Of a stretch of 53,377 nt of DNA, positions 2,617 through 9,700 are shown piece after piece. A model generated the notes under the pieces. The model searched no databases and had not been told where the DNA came from. It saw only the letters and a program-made list of their open reading frames with translations. Location: positions 1 to 53,377 of the forward strand of contig CALURK010000013.1 of NCBI GenBank assembly GCA_944323165.1, read 5' to 3'. The position numbers and the translations under genes are program-made. Position 1 is the stretch's first letter, and each line of letters begins with the position of its first letter. The DNA is from Candidatus Gastranaerophilales bacterium. Its GTDB lineage: Bacteria; Cyanobacteriota; Vampirovibrionia; Gastranaerophilales; Gastranaerophilaceae.

Positions 2617-3399
2617 TTATGTTTGATTTATATCCATGCTTCCGCTTCGCAAACCCTCCAAGTCCAGTGTTATATAATCTAAGTTTAATTCTTTCAATTG
2701 CCCAATGATTTCTTCTCTTTTTCGGATAAAATCTTCCAGCTCAAATAATGGAATTTCAATTCTTGCAAGATTATTGTGAATCCTAAATCTGGAGTTTTTA
2801 AATCCATAATCTTTAAGAATTTTTTCTCCCTGTTTTGCCTTATTAATTAAATCTTTGTATAGCATAGTATTATAAGGAAACCTTGTTGCGATACACGGAG
2901 TTGACGGTTTGTCGAAAATTTTAATTCCTGCTTGTTTGGCAAACTCTCTTATTTCCTGCTTTGTGATACCAAATTCGGCAAGAGGTGACGTGATTCCGAG
3001 CTCTTTTAACGCTTTCAACCCCGGACGGAAAACCTTTAAATCGTCAGAATTTGTCCCGTCTATTATGATTCTTTTTTGAGCGAATTCTTTTAATTTAGAG
3101 AAGAAAAGCTTTTTGCAATGATAACACCTGTCTTTGGGATTATTTTTTATAAGTTCATTTTCTAATGGATAATATTCAATAATATTTTGTTTTACTCCAT
3201 AAAACTGGCATAATTTTTTGGCTTCTTCAATCTCTTCATCAGATTGAAAAACTGATTTAAAAGTCACAGCTGTGGTATCAAAGTCTTTACATAAAAAAAG
3301 GAGTACTGTGCTATCTATACCGCCTGAAAAAGCAAGGCATATACCTTGCTTATCCAGTCCCTTTAAGTATTCTTTAAGCTGTAGAAATTTATGCTGCAT
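2617..3399 (-). CDS. larE: LarE-type pyridinium dithiocarboxylate sulfur transferase
   Basis: 260 residues. An N-terminal PP-loop ATPase has the motif AFSGGIDSTVL. Cysteines occur as RCYHCK (C-x2-C, residues about 93-96) and STPCIATRFPY. In the Lar pathway LarE adenylates the dicarboxylated nicotinic acid mononucleotide made by LarB and replaces carboxylate oxygen by sulfur. Enzymes with a single cysteine sacrifice it, whereas those with the C-x2-C plus a third cysteine, as here, hold a [4Fe-4S] cluster and can use inorganic sulfide. The start overlaps the end of the upstream transporter gene by 11 bases. It is the last intact gene of the nine-gene operon. Confidence 0.9.
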   Translation of the reverse strand: MQHKFLQLKEYLKGLDKQGICLAFSGGIDSTVLLFLCKDFDTTAVTFKSVFQSDEEIEEAKKLCQFYGVKQNIIEYYPLENELIKNNPKDRCYHCKKLFFSKLKEFAQKRIIIDGTNSDDLKVFRPGLKALKELGITSPLAEFGITKQEIREFAKQAGIKIFDKPSTPCIATRFPYNTMLYKDLINKAKQGEKILKDYGFKNSRFRIHNNLARIEIPLFELEDFIRKREEIIGQLKELNLDYITLDLEGLRSGSMDINQT

Positions 3400-4300
3400 C
3401 TTTGTTTTGACCTTTTAATGCTATTAATTGACACATTGCATACATTACCCCGAGTATCATTCCAAATCCTATAATATTTGCAGGAATAGTCTGTACGTTA
3501 GCTAAAAATGCAGTCTTGTTTTGTATAGCATTAGAGATTAAATACAATTGACCTTGAACTTGCGGAATGATAGAATTTTGAATATTCAACAATGACCATT
3601 CAAGACCATCCGGATTTTGTGAAGCTAATTGTGAAATTAAGCCAGCAAGTATTAGTCCCAAGCCACCATAAATGTAGCTCATTTTTCTGTAATCAATATT
3701 TTTTGCTGCTATAGTTATAATCGTTGTAAAAATTCCTTCTACTATACCTATAGGAAGGTGTATTGCTTGCATTAAGCCTGTAAATTTAAGTATGGAATCA
3801 AAGGCTATAGAACCTGATAAAGCTCCTTCTATTACTACAGCAATCGAGCCTAATTGAAGTGCCATAATGGATGCAAGCATTATTCCCAAAATGGATTTGT
3901 TAGTTTTTTCAAAAGGTTTATAGAATAGAGGATACGCTACAAAACAAGCTATAGCTCCCATATTGATTATATTGCATCCTAGTGCAATGAGGCTTCCGTC
4001 TGCAAAAAATAAACTTTGTACAATTAAAATACTGCACATTGCAAGAAAAGCTGCGTACGGGCCAAGCAGAATAGCAAGTAGCACTCCTCCTATAATATGT
4101 CCGCTTGAGCCTGTTTGCGGTATCGAAAAGTTTATCATTTGAAGTGCAAATACCAAACTCGTAAGAGTTGCTGTATAAGCTATTTTATTTTTTGAAAAAT
4201 CTTTTTTTGCTTTTTTGTAAGCATAAAAAGCCGTAGCGCCTGCTAAAACTAGCATTGGAATTCCTGTTACAGGACAAATAATACCATTTCCTAAGTGCAT
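3389..4300 (-). CDS. CbiM/NikM-type nickel transporter substrate-binding membrane protein (LarMN-like)
   Basis: 303 residues, seven or more hydrophobic segments. The protein starts MHLGNGIICPVTGIPML, and Met1-His2 of this family forms part of the metal site. SGHIIGGVLLA and the helix around residue 110 are typical of CbiM. The C-terminal third contains PDGLEWS, the signature of the CbiN/NikN part, so M and N functions are fused. The RBS AAGGAG lies 8 bases before ATG. Lying between larC and larE points to nickel for the Lar cofactor. The transmembrane energising partner (Q) and ATPase (O) of this ECF-type system are not in the window. Confidence 0.88.
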   Translation of the reverse strand: MHLGNGIICPVTGIPMLVLAGATAFYAYKKAKKDFSKNKIAYTATLTSLVFALQMINFSIPQTGSSGHIIGGVLLAILLGPYAAFLAMCSILIVQSLFFADGSLIALGCNIINMGAIACFVAYPLFYKPFEKTNKSILGIMLASIMALQLGSIAVVIEGALSGSIAFDSILKFTGLMQAIHLPIGIVEGIFTTIITIAAKNIDYRKMSYIYGGLGLILAGLISQLASQNPDGLEWSLLNIQNSIIPQVQGQLYLISNAIQNKTAFLANVQTIPANIIGFGMILGVMYAMCQLIALKGQNKDAA

Positions 4301-4312
4301 AATCTTCTCCTT

Positions 4313-5056
4313 TTATTTTATTTGCATAACTCTTAATACAGGGTTTTTATAAGGTCTTTTACCTCTTCCGTACCCGACTTTTTTAATTACCATTTTTTCA
4401 GGGAGTTCTTCTCTATTGTATAAGGCTGCAACTATTGCCGCACCGGTTGGAGTTACCATCTCACCAATGTTATCTGAAATTTTTATCGGAATTTCGTATT
4501 TTGAAACTATTTCACAAACAGCCGGTACAGGAACCGACAGAGCCCCATGTTGACATGTAACCGTTCCTTGACCTTCGGTTAGTGCTGAAAAATATACTTT
4601 TTCAGGTTTTAAATTATCAAAAAGTACGGAAAAACTTACAATATCAACTATAGAATCGATTGCTCCAATCTCGTGAAAATGAATTTCTGAAATATCTTTG
4701 TTATGAACTTTACTTTCAGCTTCGGCTACTATTTTGAAAATTGTTTTGGCAAGTTCTTTTGATTTTTCTGTAATATCAGCTTTGTCAATAATTTTATATA
4801 CATCTTCAAGATTTCTATGTGTATGGTGGTGTTCATGCCCTGTGTGGTGTGTATGTTCCTCAGGTAATATAACGTCAAAATCAGTTGTTGAAATCGCATT
4901 CACCATTTGTTTTGTAATTTTATATTGAAACTCGTTATCAAGTTTCATTGACGCAAGAGCTTTGTCCAAAACTTCTTTATCCGCTCCTAAATCAAGCAAT
5001 GCTCCTACAGACATATCACCTGATATACCAGAATTACATTCAAAATAAAGTTCCAT
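4313..5056 (-). CDS. larC: LarC N-terminal (nickel-binding) domain protein, C-terminal domain absent
   Basis: 247 residues. It begins MELYFECNSGISGDMSVGA, the LarC/DUF111 opening. A His-rich stretch (HTHHTGHEHHHTH) near residue 70, then HFHEIGAIDSIVDI and TPTGAA, are also diagnostic. LarC is the CTP-dependent nickel insertase for the pincer cofactor and is normally about 400 residues, sometimes made from larC1 and larC2 by frameshifting. Here the frame ends after NPVLRVMQIK with TAA, followed at once by the RBS and start of the transporter gene; no LarC2 sequence follows in any frame. The start is set at 5056, one base after the larB stop, with GAGAGG upstream. Confidence 0.88.
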   Translation of the reverse strand: MELYFECNSGISGDMSVGALLDLGADKEVLDKALASMKLDNEFQYKITKQMVNAISTTDFDVILPEEHTHHTGHEHHHTHRNLEDVYKIIDKADITEKSKELAKTIFKIVAEAESKVHNKDISEIHFHEIGAIDSIVDIVSFSVLFDNLKPEKVYFSALTEGQGTVTCQHGALSVPVPAVCEIVSKYEIPIKISDNIGEMVTPTGAAIVAALYNREELPEKMVIKKVGYGRGKRPYKNPVLRVMQIK

Positions 5057-5057
5057 A

Positions 5058-5735
5058 TTATTTTTTCCTCTCAATTAATCTGTTTATTTGACCGGCACTG
5101 TAACCTGCATTATATCCGTTATCAATGTTTACGACAGTCATTCCTTCTGCACACGAATTAAGCATCGTAAGTAATGCCGATAACCCATTAAAGCTTGTCC
5201 CGTAACCTACTGATGTTGGAACTGCAATAACAGGTATATCAACCATGCCGGCAAGAACTCCCCCTAAAGCACCTTCCATTCCTGCTACTGCCACAATTGC
5301 ATTCGCTTTTTTTATATCTTCAATTTTGTCAAAAAGTCTGTGTATTCCTGCAATGCCGATGTCATAATATCTTTTCACATTGCTTCCGTAAAATTCTGCA
5401 GTATCAGCTGCTTCTTCAGCTATAGGAATATCCCCGCTTCCACCTGTACAAATCGCTACTTCTCCGATTTTCTCTATCGGATTTTGTATGAGCGTAACCA
5501 CTTTTGAAATTTCATTGTATTTGATAAGTGAATTGAATTCTCTTTTCAAAGCTTCATACTGCTTTGCTGAGCATCTTGTCCCTAGAACATTCGAATGAGC
5601 CTCTTTAAAAGCCTTAAATATTTCAATAAGCTGAGCTTCAGTTTTGCATTCGCAATAAACAGCTTCGGAATATCCTCGTCTTTTAATCCTGTCTATATCT
5701 AATTTTGCGAAATTAAGTTCTATGTATTTATCCAT
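5058..5735 (-). CDS. larB: LarB, nicotinate nucleotide carboxylase/hydrolase
   Basis: 225 residues. The C-terminal half is a PurE-like domain: ICTGGSGDIPIAEEAADTAE, VAVAGMEGALGG, VPTSVGYGTSF and finally LNSCAEGMTVVNIDNGYNAG, which carries the cysteine known to be needed in LarB. It carboxylates nicotinic acid adenine dinucleotide and hydrolyses it to give the pyridinium-3,5-biscarboxylate mononucleotide used by LarE. The start codon lies inside the end of tatC (8-base overlap), so translation of the Tat and Lar parts is coupled. Confidence 0.93.
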   Translation of the reverse strand: MDKYIELNFAKLDIDRIKRRGYSEAVYCECKTEAQLIEIFKAFKEAHSNVLGTRCSAKQYEALKREFNSLIKYNEISKVVTLIQNPIEKIGEVAICTGGSGDIPIAEEAADTAEFYGSNVKRYYDIGIAGIHRLFDKIEDIKKANAIVAVAGMEGALGGVLAGMVDIPVIAVPTSVGYGTSFNGLSALLTMLNSCAEGMTVVNIDNGYNAGYSAGQINRLIERKK

Positions 5736-6459
5736 TTTTCTCTTTCTTAATTTTTATTTTTGAAACCAATAGTCCTAATTCAAAAAGTAAATATGTAGGT
5801 GTGAATAGGAGAACTTGGCTTAAAATATCAGGGGGTGTGAGTATCCCTGCAATAATTAAAATTATTACAATAACATAAGGTCTCATTTTTTCAAATGTCT
5901 TGTATTCAACAAACCCTGATTTAATCAAAGAATAAGTTATTAGTGGTAGTTGAAACATTAAACCAAAGGCAAGTGTGAGCCAGAGTGAAAGATTTAATAC
6001 ATTAGAGATTCCAAGTACAGCCTTAATATTTTGTGTAGCAAAACTTATTCCAAAATTAATGATAAGTGGTAATATTACGAAAATGCAAAAGACTGTTCCT
6101 AAAACAAACAATAAAAATGATGTTAGAACGATTGATTTAATGAATTTTCTCTCATTTTCATAAAGCGCAGGTGCAAAGAATGTCCATACTTGCTTTATTA
6201 TAAAAGGGAAACACAATATTAAATCCAAAACGAATGCGAACTTTATCTGGAGCAGAAAAACTTCTACAGGAGAAAAATAATTAAGTTCGACAGGCTTTCC
6301 TTTTATAAGCAATTTTATAAACAAATCCAAGCCCTTAGGAGCAATGAAAAGCATCGGAATAATGACTACACCCAAGCTTATCAGGCATTTTATAAGCATT
6401 TCTCTAAAGGCTTCAATATGAGAAATTATACTTTCATCTTTATCTTCAATACTGTTCAT
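5728..6459 (-). CDS. tatC: TatC, twin-arginine translocase receptor subunit
   Basis: 243 residues with six predicted membrane helices. Typical features are SHIEAFREMLIKCL at the N-terminus (TatC has a conserved E in this first loop), FFAPALYENERKF with the functionally important loop, and FGLMFQLPLITY. TatC binds RR signal peptides of folded precursors. The start follows two bases after the tatA stop. Both lie in an operon whose first genes include an RR-signal lipoprotein and a protein with an internal RR segment, suggesting a translocase kept mainly for these. Confidence 0.95.
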   Translation of the reverse strand: MNSIEDKDESIISHIEAFREMLIKCLISLGVVIIPMLFIAPKGLDLFIKLLIKGKPVELNYFSPVEVFLLQIKFAFVLDLILCFPFIIKQVWTFFAPALYENERKFIKSIVLTSFLLFVLGTVFCIFVILPLIINFGISFATQNIKAVLGISNVLNLSLWLTLAFGLMFQLPLITYSLIKSGFVEYKTFEKMRPYVIVIILIIAGILTPPDILSQVLLFTPTYLLFELGLLVSKIKIKKEKNG

Positions 6460-6461
6460 TA

Positions 6462-6677
6462 TTAAACGTCTTTTGGCTTGTATTCCTCGGGTTTTTCTTG
6501 TGTTTCTTCTATTGCATTTTTAAGTTCTTCAGTTTCTTTTTGAATAACATTTTTAGCTTTTTTGTATTCATAAGAAGCTCGCCCCAGTGCTCTTGCAATT
6601 TCAGGAATTCTTTTTCCGCCGAATAAAAGTATAATAACAACCAATATAAGTAATATTTCAGTAATTCCAAGTGACAT
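6462..6677 (-). CDS. tatA: TatA/E-family translocase pore subunit
   Basis: 71 residues. One N-terminal membrane helix ([16 protein letters not shown]) is followed by [15 protein letters not shown], the amphipathic helix with the invariant FGxxKxP-like turn, then a charged tail (about 30 residues, many E and K). Only one TatA/B-type gene is present, so this is a TatAC system of the minimal kind. Located between the iron-sulfur protein gene and tatC. Confidence 0.93.
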
Positions 6678-6698: not shown

Positions 6699-7979
6699 TT
6701 ATATTAAACTTTGTTTTTTAACAGCAAATATCTCAATAGCGTTGCCTCTGTTTTTACAAACTTGTTTGCAAGCACCGCAGCCAATACATTTAGACGCATT
6801 GATGACAATTTTCCCTTCAGCTCTAATTATAGCACCATAAGGACAAGCATTTATACAAGCTCCGCATTTGCCACACTTCTCTTCTATTATCATTGCCATT
6901 CCTATCCTTGTTTTTTGTTTTTCTTCAAGGCTAAGTCTTTTTATTGCTCCAGTCGGACAAACTTGTCCGCACTTATTACAATTCTTGTCACAGCAACCTT
7001 TAGTGTAGTCAAGATGTACAGTAGGAAAGTCTTTATTTGCTTTTACTATAACCTTGTTAGGGCAATTTTCTACGCAAAGATTACAGTTAAAGCATTTGTT
7101 AGCCAGTCTTTCTTCACTTTCAGCTCCGGGAGGAAGAATTATATCTTTAAATTTTTCAACAATTTTATCTTTTACGACCATCCCAGCTTTAACCATTGCA
7201 CCAAAAACTGCTGCGGCTGTTACTCCTAATAAAATTTCGCGTCTTTTATTGCTGAATTTTATAGCTTCTTTAGGTTCCCTTCCATATTTTATACTATTTT
7301 TAGGACATACTCCTAAACATTTTAAGCACTTGACGCAAATTTCGTTATCGACTGTTTTGTCTTTAGAATTTATACACCCGGAAGGGCATTTGCTTTGGCA
7401 TAAACCGCAAGATACACAAGAATCTTTCTGGATATATATTTTATTTGGAGAAATTTTTGATAATATACCAAGTAGCGTACCTGCTGGACAGATATTTGTG
7501 CAGAAAAATCTGTTTTTGAAAAATGTTAAAAACAGTACAACTACAAGAGCTGAAAGTCCTGTTACAGAAAGTGTAAAAGCTGAACCAAAATATGTATAAG
7601 GTTCAATATATCTTATTAAAAGAGCACTTCCTCCAGCCAGCATTCCCAATGTAATTGCTAATATAAAATACTTTAGCGGATAGTTTTTTGTTGGCTTATT
7701 TGTCCGTTTCCTGAAAAATAAAAGTCCTGCAATTTCTTGGATGATTCCAAACGGGCAAATTGTCGAGCAGTAAAAACGTCCGAAAACTATTGTTAAAATA
7801 GTGATTCCCAAAAGTAATGCCAGAGAAATTATCGAAAAATCAATGAATGTTCTTTCTAGAACAGGAATAAATTGAATATCAAAAATCTTTACTGGATAAA
7901 AAATCCCACAAATTCCCAATATAGCAAGTGTAAGTATTGTAATTGCTATCGCTAATCTTATCTTATAAGCTTTTTTCAT
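6699..7979 (-). CDS. NapH-NapG-like fusion: membrane and multi-[4Fe-4S] electron conduit
   Basis: 426 residues. N-terminal half: four membrane helices (about 8-27, 45-67, 103-123, 135-155) with the NapH/NosR cysteine motifs FYCSTICPFG (71-78) and FFCTNICPAG (159-167), then two [4Fe-4S] sites (cysteines 188-198 and 215-225). A twin-arginine segment with hydrophobic stretch follows (RREILLGVTAAAVFGAMV, from 246), then a NapG-like part with four cysteine clusters (296-306, 329-341, 369-379, 398-408). Such proteins pass electrons from menaquinol to exported enzymes. An RR segment after earlier Sec-type helices recalls the actinobacterial Rieske protein, which needs both Sec and Tat. Start overlaps the stop of the aldo/keto reductase gene. 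Confidence 0.85.
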   Translation of the reverse strand: MKKAYKIRLAIAITILTLAILGICGIFYPVKIFDIQFIPVLERTFIDFSIISLALLLGITILTIVFGRFYCSTICPFGIIQEIAGLLFFRKRTNKPTKNYPLKYFILAITLGMLAGGSALLIRYIEPYTYFGSAFTLSVTGLSALVVVLFLTFFKNRFFCTNICPAGTLLGILSKISPNKIYIQKDSCVSCGLCQSKCPSGCINSKDKTVDNEICVKCLKCLGVCPKNSIKYGREPKEAIKFSNKRREILLGVTAAAVFGAMVKAGMVVKDKIVEKFKDIILPPGAESEERLANKCFNCNLCVENCPNKVIVKANKDFPTVHLDYTKGCCDKNCNKCGQVCPTGAIKRLSLEEKQKTRIGMAMIIEEKCGKCGACINACPYGAIIRAEGKIVINASKCIGCGACKQVCKNRGNAIEIFAVKKQSLI

Positions 7980-9220
7980 TATTTCATACTCTTTTCAACT
8001 TCTTTAACTTTATTGTCAACTTCAGCTAGTAATGTTGGTATATCAAGTGCTTGCGGACAATTTTTGCTGCATAATCCGCATTTTATGCACTTGTCGGCTC
8101 TTGTCGATTCATCAAGCGCGTTATAATTGTATACAAACATAAAGTTTGCATTAGGCGCGGTGTTACCTTTGTACATATTGTAAAGTCCAAAAATCGCCGG
8201 AATATTTATACCTCTTGGGCAAACTTCCATACAATATTTGCAAGCTGTACAGCTTATTGCACCGCCGGATTGTATTATTTGTGCAATTTCATGCGCTACT
8301 TTTTCTTCTTTTTCAGTAAGTTCTCTGTAATTAACAAAAGTATCGACATTTTCTTTAAGCTGTTGAAGATTACTCATACCGCTAAGAATTGTAAATACTC
8401 TTTTACGTCCTGCTGCCCATCTTAAACCAAATGAAGCTTCTGTATCGTTAGGGCATTCTTGTTTTAATTTGTCTTTCGCTTTTTGAGGAAGATTGCAGAG
8501 AACTCCGCCCCTTAGAGGTTCCATAACAATTACAGGAACACCAGCTTCGTCTGCAATTCGGTATAATTCGTCCGCATTTACGACTTCCCAGTCCAGATAA
8601 TTAAGTTGTAATTGGCAGAAATCCCACTTATGCTCTTTAATTACTTCTCTAAGCATTTGAGGATCGCCGTGGAAAGAGAAGCCTACGTGCTTGACTAAAC
8701 CTTCCTTTTTGAGTTTAACAATCTCATCATACATATTGTTATCACGATAATTGCTTAAACTGTTTTTGTTAATATTGTGAACCATGTAATTATCAAAATA
8801 CTTAACTTGACATTTCTTTAGTTGTTCTTCACAAAGTTTTCTAACATCAGATGGAGAATTTACGAGATATGCAGGGCATTTGTCTGCTAAAATAAAGCTT
8901 TCTCTTGGATATTTCTTTAAAATTTCACCGATAGCATTTTCAGATTTCCCGTCCACGTACATATATGCAGTATCAAAGTAATTTGCACCATGCGCAAAGG
9001 CATATTCAACCATTTTGTCTAATTCAACCATGTCGATTTTTCCGTCATGCATAGGAAGTCGCATGCACCCTAGTGCAATTAGCGGTGTGTCAATGTCTGC
9101 AAATTTACGTCTTACTACTTGTCCTTCGGCTTTTTTTATTTCTTTCTTGCCGCAACCAGATAAAAGCGCGGCACCTCCGATTGCAAGTGCTGAATTTATT
9201 ATGAAATCCCGTCTTTTCAT
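7979..9220 (-). CDS. Tat-exported aldo/keto reductase lipoprotein with C-terminal ferredoxin domain
   Basis: 413 residues. The N-terminus MKRRDFIINSALAIGGAALL is a twin-arginine signal ending in the lipobox LLSGC (Cys23). The aldo/keto reductase barrel shows FDTAYMYVDGKSE (Asp, Tyr), a lysine in ADKCP and histidine in YMVHN, the usual tetrad. The C-terminus adds CTACKYCMEVCP and CIKCGLCSKNCP, two cysteine clusters of a ferredoxin-like domain. NAD(P)H is not available outside the cytoplasm, so the electron donor is probably the next gene product (inference). Second gene of the operon. Confidence 0.9.
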   Translation of the reverse strand: MKRRDFIINSALAIGGAALLSGCGKKEIKKAEGQVVRRKFADIDTPLIALGCMRLPMHDGKIDMVELDKMVEYAFAHGANYFDTAYMYVDGKSENAIGEILKKYPRESFILADKCPAYLVNSPSDVRKLCEEQLKKCQVKYFDNYMVHNINKNSLSNYRDNNMYDEIVKLKKEGLVKHVGFSFHGDPQMLREVIKEHKWDFCQLQLNYLDWEVVNADELYRIADEAGVPVIVMEPLRGGVLCNLPQKAKDKLKQECPNDTEASFGLRWAAGRKRVFTILSGMSNLQQLKENVDTFVNYRELTEKEEKVAHEIAQIIQSGGAISCTACKYCMEVCPRGINIPAIFGLYNMYKGNTAPNANFMFVYNYNALDESTRADKCIKCGLCSKNCPQALDIPTLLAEVDNKVKEVEKSMK

Positions 9221-9229
9221 ATTATCCTC

Positions 9230-9700
9230 TTATATGTTTAGGCTACTGATCCAAGTCTTGATATCTTCAATTTTACCAGAATTCTCATAAGAAGTATATC
9301 CTTCCAGAACCCTTGCACCTTGTGATATTTCTTGTATGTCATGATAAGTATTTGACGCTCCTCCGCCACCGTGTGTGCAGAAAGGTACTATAATTTTGTT
9401 ATTCCAATTATGTTCTGATAAATAAGTTCTGACAGGTGACGCCATAGTATACCACCATACAGGAGTCCCTACGAAAATTATATCATACTCGCTTATATCA
9501 CCTAAGTTTACAAGTTCAGGTTTCGTATTATTTTCTTTTTCAATTTTAGCTTGGTTAACGACTTCATTGTAGTTGTTAGAATATTCTTTTTGGGGCGTGA
9601 TTTCAAAAATGTCCGCGCCTGTTATTTCTTTAATTTTTCCCGCTACGGATTTTGTGTTTCCTGAATGAGAATAATAAGCTACTAAAATTTTTTTAGACAT
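9230..9700 (-). CDS. Flavodoxin-like protein
   Basis: 156 residues. The phosphate-binding loop for FMN is YYSHSGNTKSVA near the N-terminus; VGTPVWWYTMASPVRTYL and FCTHGGGG form the other flavin contacts typical of the short flavodoxin-4/WrbA-like group often found beside iron-sulfur aldo/keto reductases. It is first in the operon with RBS GGAGG before the ATG. A soluble cytoplasmic electron carrier or flavin reductase is likely. The substrate side is not visible. Confidence 0.9.
   Translation of the reverse strand: MSKKILVAYYSHSGNTKSVAGKIKEITGADIFEITPQKEYSNNYNEVVNQAKIEKENNTKPELVNLGDISEYDIIFVGTPVWWYTMASPVRTYLSEHNWNNKIIVPFCTHGGGGASNTYHDIQEISQGARVLEGYTSYENSGKIEDIKTWISSLNI

Follow-up and report, generated by a model that had tools for sequence, protein, structure and literature searches.

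A LarC reduced to its N-terminal domain in a Gastranaerophilales operon with a putative exported reductase

The window, a 53,377-nucleotide stretch of DNA from a Candidatus Gastranaerophilales bacterium, encodes a LarC protein that consists of the N-terminal domain only (LarC-N) and stands in an operon with larB, larE, and a predicted Tat-exported aldo-keto reductase (AKR). The reading that we prefer, to which we assign a probability of about 0.5, is that this minimal LarC makes, independently of CTP, a pincer-type cofactor for a client other than LarA, most likely the exported reductase. In this mechanism, LarC-N alone would be a folded protein working with LarB, LarE, and the CbiMN importer, and its single domain would insert or hold nickel. 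The product would be a nickel-pincer-type (pyridinium dithiocarboxylate) mononucleotide made without a CTP-dependent cytidinylylation step. The reductase would bind this cofactor in the cytoplasm, would be exported folded via TatAC, and would be fed electrons by a NapH-like polyferredoxin. These functions are read from the order of the genes, their co-occurrence, and their joint loss, and we infer both the CTP independence of the short LarC and nickel as the metal of the cofactor. According to the available text of PMC11796402, about 15% of the genomes surveyed contain larBCE while lacking larA, the protein that uses the cofactor being unknown, and the occurrence of larBCE without larA in cyanobacteria is an open question. 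The operon described here is like cyanobacterial larBCE in having the cofactor genes without LarA, but differs in that it gives a candidate client. An operon tying larBCE to one enzyme makes that candidate concrete and testable, and the repeated loss of the CTP domain by LarC questions the need for cytidinylylation in nickel insertion.

The gene order in the window is flavodoxin, AKR-ferredoxin with a Tat signal, NapH-like polyferredoxin, tatA, tatC, larB, larC-N, cbiMN, and larE. The features, from the lowest coordinate upward, are as follows:
2617..3399, minus strand: larE (NCBIfam LarE, 258 bits, cut-off 150), with SGGxDS and with CxxC plus a third Cys, the [4Fe-4S] LarE pattern
3389..4300, minus strand: cbiMN-like nickel/cobalt importer component, CbiM plus PDGLE (Pfam CbiM 7.6e-48, PDGLE 2.3e-9)
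4301..4312, minus strand: gap of 12 bases between larC and cbiMN, with a Shine-Dalgarno-like AAGGAG; the larC stop is TAA and the cbiM-like ATG is at 4300
4313..5056, minus strand: larC-N, N-terminal domain only, 247 aa from the ATG, with a His-rich loop at about residues 68-80
5058..5735, minus strand: larB, 225 aa (NCBIfam LarB, 278 bits, cut-off 175), its stop one base before the larC ATG
5728..6459, minus strand: tatC (Pfam TatC 9e-53)
6462..6677, minus strand: tatA (Pfam TatA_B_E 6.8e-16)
6699..7979, minus strand: NapH-like membrane polyferredoxin (several Fer4 families and Fer4_5)
7979..9220, minus strand: AKR with C-terminal 2x[4Fe-4S] and a twin-arginine (lipoprotein-like) signal, the proposed client (Pfam Aldo_ket_red 9e-42, Fer4 families)
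9230..9700, minus strand: flavodoxin, upstream of the reductase (Pfam Flavodoxin_4 2.7e-29)

The short protein is a LarC by N-terminal homology (PF01969/TIGR00299), since it matches the NCBIfam LarC1 model at 192 bits (cut-off 90) and positions 1-233 of the 375 in the Pfam PF01969 (Ni_insertion) model (E 2.7e-81, 274 bits against a cut-off of 22.1), and LarB and LarE are encoded in the same genome as partners. The original prediction that the frame stops after 247 residues, leaving LarC with its N-terminal domain only, and that the next gene starts 12 bases later agrees with this match and with the window sequence. An AlphaFold model of the 247 residues, built from a 38-row alignment, has a pLDDT of 91.6 and a pTM of 0.90, the His-rich loop (residues 68-77) being less confident, and its last strand is complete and closes the fold. 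A Foldseek search of this model against the PDB gave a best E of 0.14, with 12bi absent among the 50 matches listed.

The C-terminal domain was looked for with an HMM built from 48 full-length LarCs, in a genome of 1.93 Mb on 33 contigs that is 99.8% complete. None of the six reading frames of the window matches the HMM, in agreement with the earlier statement that no C-terminal domain can be made by frameshifting; with cbiMN starting so soon after the stop, a frameshift rescue was rejected. The only PF01969 match in the whole genome is the larC-N of the window, and the genome-wide search for a stand-alone LarC C-domain found none, so that a separate larC2 was likewise rejected and the CTP-binding part of LarC is missing both in cis and in trans. 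The proposal that the domain is encoded elsewhere is thus not supported for this genome, which contains neither the full-length larC nor the separate larC2 that would have spoken against the original prediction. As a positive control, the same search detected a stand-alone C-domain in another genome (G116, 1.8e-53). Six of the 43 genomes searched contain the domain, one of them as a stand-alone protein; the 19 short-larC genomes, 6 further Gastranaerophilales, and 12 genomes from other groups with an N-only LarC gave no match. The missing region corresponds to the domain whose separate structure is 6bwo and which is also present in 12bi; we take it to bind CTP. The uncharacterised 186-aa protein of PDB 3c19 (MK0293) is matched by the C-domain profile alone (1.2e-12), so stand-alone C-domains exist. 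LarA, which the suggested genome search also covered, is absent as well: PF09861 has 0 matches in this genome and none over the cut-off in 97 genomes (own plus relatives), so that a LarA encoded elsewhere was rejected and the set lacks the racemase of a lactate racemase (lar) system.

The LarCs of Moorella thermoacetica, Synechocystis, and Lactiplantibacillus plantarum have the N-terminal domain and the LarB/LarE partners in common with the window LarC, which differs from them in having no C-terminal domain and in standing in a genome without LarA. L. plantarum makes LarC1 and LarC2 by frameshifting; compared with that pair, the window larC is without a C-part in any frame or elsewhere, and no larC2 is present. 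In two loci with a split larC (L141, L147), the N-part stops close to where larC-N stops. According to the accessible part of PMC11796402, LarC uses CTP to cytidinylylate P2TMN, and hydrolysis follows nickel insertion. This need of the full protein for CTP speaks for a rather unlikely alternative in which the N-domain only holds nickel or P2TMN and an unrelated protein gives the CTP-binding function in trans, as does one genome (G112) in which fragments of the C-domain lie apart from an N-only frame. Against it, no such CTP partner is conserved in the operon and the C-domain searches were negative, although a non-homologous partner would escape them.

The short form is conserved. Among the 97 genomes, 26 have LarC; within the genus and families f6 and f7, all 19 genomes that carry larC have the N-only form, each with a LarB over the cut-off, and the remaining seven, which belong to other families within the order and class, have the full length. 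The dN/dS of the window larC against its relatives is 0.06-0.22 in eight of nine pairs, the ninth being saturated, and is 0.095 against the nearest relative (G002). The short larC is under purifying selection, and an assembly error at larC was rejected because the relatives share the same end point in all 19 genomes. It is very improbable that larC and its pathway are decaying remnants. Some relatives do carry frameshifted cluster members (L076, L090, L125), and sir and hemL are broken nearby in the window, but dN/dS is far below 1, larC has an identical end point across many species, and larB, larC, cbiMN, and larE are all intact in the source genome. The earlier suggestion of decay is contradicted by these results, and of the three explanations that had been offered, only the one in which the protein works alone survives. 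The broken hemL-like and sulfite/nitrite reductase-like genes lie at 642-2600 and abut near 1410; a relative (L036) has an intact reductase of 445 aa at that site, and the region reflects either a deletion or a misassembly.

In a quick tree of 103 LarC N-domains, made without bootstrap and with two rows (L125, L043) dropped for length, the short LarCs of Candidatus Gastranaerophilales form one clade (SH-aLRT 99). It is surrounded by LarCs from Clostridia and from other, mostly intestinal, bacteria, and the full-length LarCs from its own class stand elsewhere in the tree. This placement suggests a horizontal gain of the short larC. Lachnospiraceae, Kiritimatiellae, a Bacilli MAG, and an Eggerthellaceae MAG likewise have N-only LarCs, interspersed with full-length ones, and nearly all of these short proteins end just past the same final strand; the state changes seven times on the tree, with at least two changes forced by starred branches. 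LarC is found in 187 of the 292 phylum genomes sampled, and among the matches listed nearly all LarCs outside the family of the source organism are full length. A Kiritimatiellae genome with an N-only LarC (G104) holds a distant LarA-like frame (46.9 bits), so the absence of LarA alongside N-only LarC is not a rule. In the open-licence literature searched, neither a half-length LarC nor a larC-reductase operon was reported.

The link between larC and the reductase is carried by their retention and loss in relatives. Loci were counted by mechanical longest-ORF picking, in which genes can be missed: larB was missed in L116 and larC in L117, L118, L123, and L138, these four LarCs being recovered by HMMs. 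Among 36 distinct Gastranaerophilales loci, several of them on short contigs and with four duplicates dropped (L073, L075, L078, L089), AKR, napH, tatC, and larB all stand beside the short larC in 24. Across the 58 genomes of the genus, larC and AKR are both present in 13, larC alone in 3, AKR alone in 3, and neither in 39, an agreement in 52 genomes (p 8e-8, Fisher, ignoring relatedness); the corresponding counts for larC and tatC are 13/3/0/42 (p 1.8e-10, Fisher, ignoring relatedness), tatC over the cut-off occurring only alongside larC (13/13). The halves of the operon are also retained where they are not adjacent, about 45 kb apart in one genome (G036) and on other contigs in three (G015, G021, G031). 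In the three larC-less genomes with an AKR (G011, G027, G048), larB, larC, and tat are gone from the locus, and the AKR is broken and lies beside fragments of napH, cbiMN, or larE. The AKR was not found in three of the 19 short-larC genomes (G004, G007, G029), which are 89-94% complete.

The MKRR[DE]F signal of the reductase and the tatA and tatC of the operon mark it as a predicted Tat substrate, which should be exported folded. Eight Cys of the clusters and the residues D83, Y88, K114, and H148, which we take to be the AKR catalytic tetrad motif, are invariant in 20 aligned sequences. NAD(P)H is not available outside the cytoplasm, so an exported reductase needs a tightly bound hydride cofactor, which would be either NADP or the Lar product. 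The operon points to the second without proving it, and makes the reductase the most likely client. As a tentative extension, the exported AKR-ferredoxin may represent a new class of pincer-nucleotide enzyme, in which LarB, LarE, and a half-LarC working without CTP would supply a hydride-transfer cofactor. Fixed in the protein before Tat export, this cofactor would support extracytoplasmic reduction without NAD(P)H, with electrons arriving one at a time via the iron-sulfur clusters. It is also possible, though doubtful, that the AKR is an ordinary Tat-exported enzyme with tight NADP(H), that the Lar cofactor serves a protein elsewhere, and that the operon reflects co-regulation. The invariant tetrad is compatible with the use of bound NADP(H), and, going by the title of Halbig 1999 as cited in PMC6708511, a Tat-exported NADP-holding enzyme exists. 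This enzyme, glucose-fructose oxidoreductase, is like the logic proposed here in that the cofactor is bound before Tat export, but belongs to another family than AKR, and the pincer cofactor here is only proposed. Weighing against co-regulation alone, larC and the reductase are kept together and have decayed together, even where the halves are unlinked, and the same partners occur in Alphaproteobacteria in a different order.

The alphaproteobacterial operons, in two gut MAGs (L113 and L129, the latter labelled 'uncultured proteobacterium'), have the order napH-tatA-tatC-AKR-larB-larC-larE, unlike that of the window, and a further locus (L116) carries most of the napH/tat/AKR/lar set. LarC in these operons is full length, at 401-414 aa, and LarA was not found in the genomes of the carriers. 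The link between the reductase and the Lar genes is thus independent of the truncation, and the reductase by itself does not explain the loss of the C-domain. A related AKR without a Tat signal lies directly before a full larC in Terrisporobacter (L124), and a Clostridia MAG (L133) has one near larC; chance alone would produce a small number of such neighbours. In the other N-only genomes (Lachnospiraceae, Bacilli, Kiritimatiellae), larC does not have the exported reductase beside it, and another client must therefore exist there.

DUF362 proteins look like candidate pincer-cofactor clients. A profile alignment of DUF362 with LarA (E 1.3e-5, 80.8%) sets the His and Lys of a DUF362 motif (19 of 23 rows) opposite the His and Lys of LarA, which we take to be H174 and the cofactor-tethering K184. 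DUF362 is placed in the Pfam clan of LarA in the portion of PMC11770544 available. It is present in 6 of 7 full-LarC genomes, 3 of 19 short-LarC genomes, and 2 of 71 LarC-less genomes, and in the phylum sample 93 of the 95 DUF362 genomes outside the family of the source organism have LarC (hand count). DUF362 adjoins an N-only larC in one locus (L126) and may be an alternative client in the short-larC genomes G021, G063, and G068. Weak Lar_N matches in N-only Lachnospiraceae were rejected as LarA, being DUF362-ferredoxin proteins. DUF362 (PF04015) proteins were seen in L126 (7266-8192), L133 (6149-7042), L163-L168, and L171-L184, with weak Lar_N matches, several of them over the cut-off.

LarB and LarE are intact by their family models, and the CxxC plus third Cys pattern is that of the iron-sulfur type of LarE in the available text of PMC9283937, so that P2TMN is probably produced by this pair. 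Some relatives lack the importer in the cluster, and L083 and L086 have an EamA permease in its place; nickel is therefore unproven as the metal. An unlikely alternative is a pincer nucleotide with another metal or none, LarC-N binding and delivering P2TMN; the domain that is linked to CTP-driven insertion of nickel is absent and cbiMN is not universal in the cluster, but 26 columns are invariant across short and full LarCs (38 aligned) and the nickel/cobalt importer is retained in 28 of 36 loci.

Other variation was seen around the operon. A permease of 288-294 aa takes the place of cbiMN after larC in L083, L086, L087, L091, and L125, the copies of the first two being the EamA proteins, and in L084 larE directly follows larC. 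A similar protein of 324-365 aa precedes larB in L028, L032, L083, L084, and L091; a Pfam search of the L083 copy matched no family. In L079, L082, L085, L090, and L113, the flavodoxin encoded next to the exported reductase carries a hydrophobic segment at its N-terminus, which suggests that it is extracytoplasmic.
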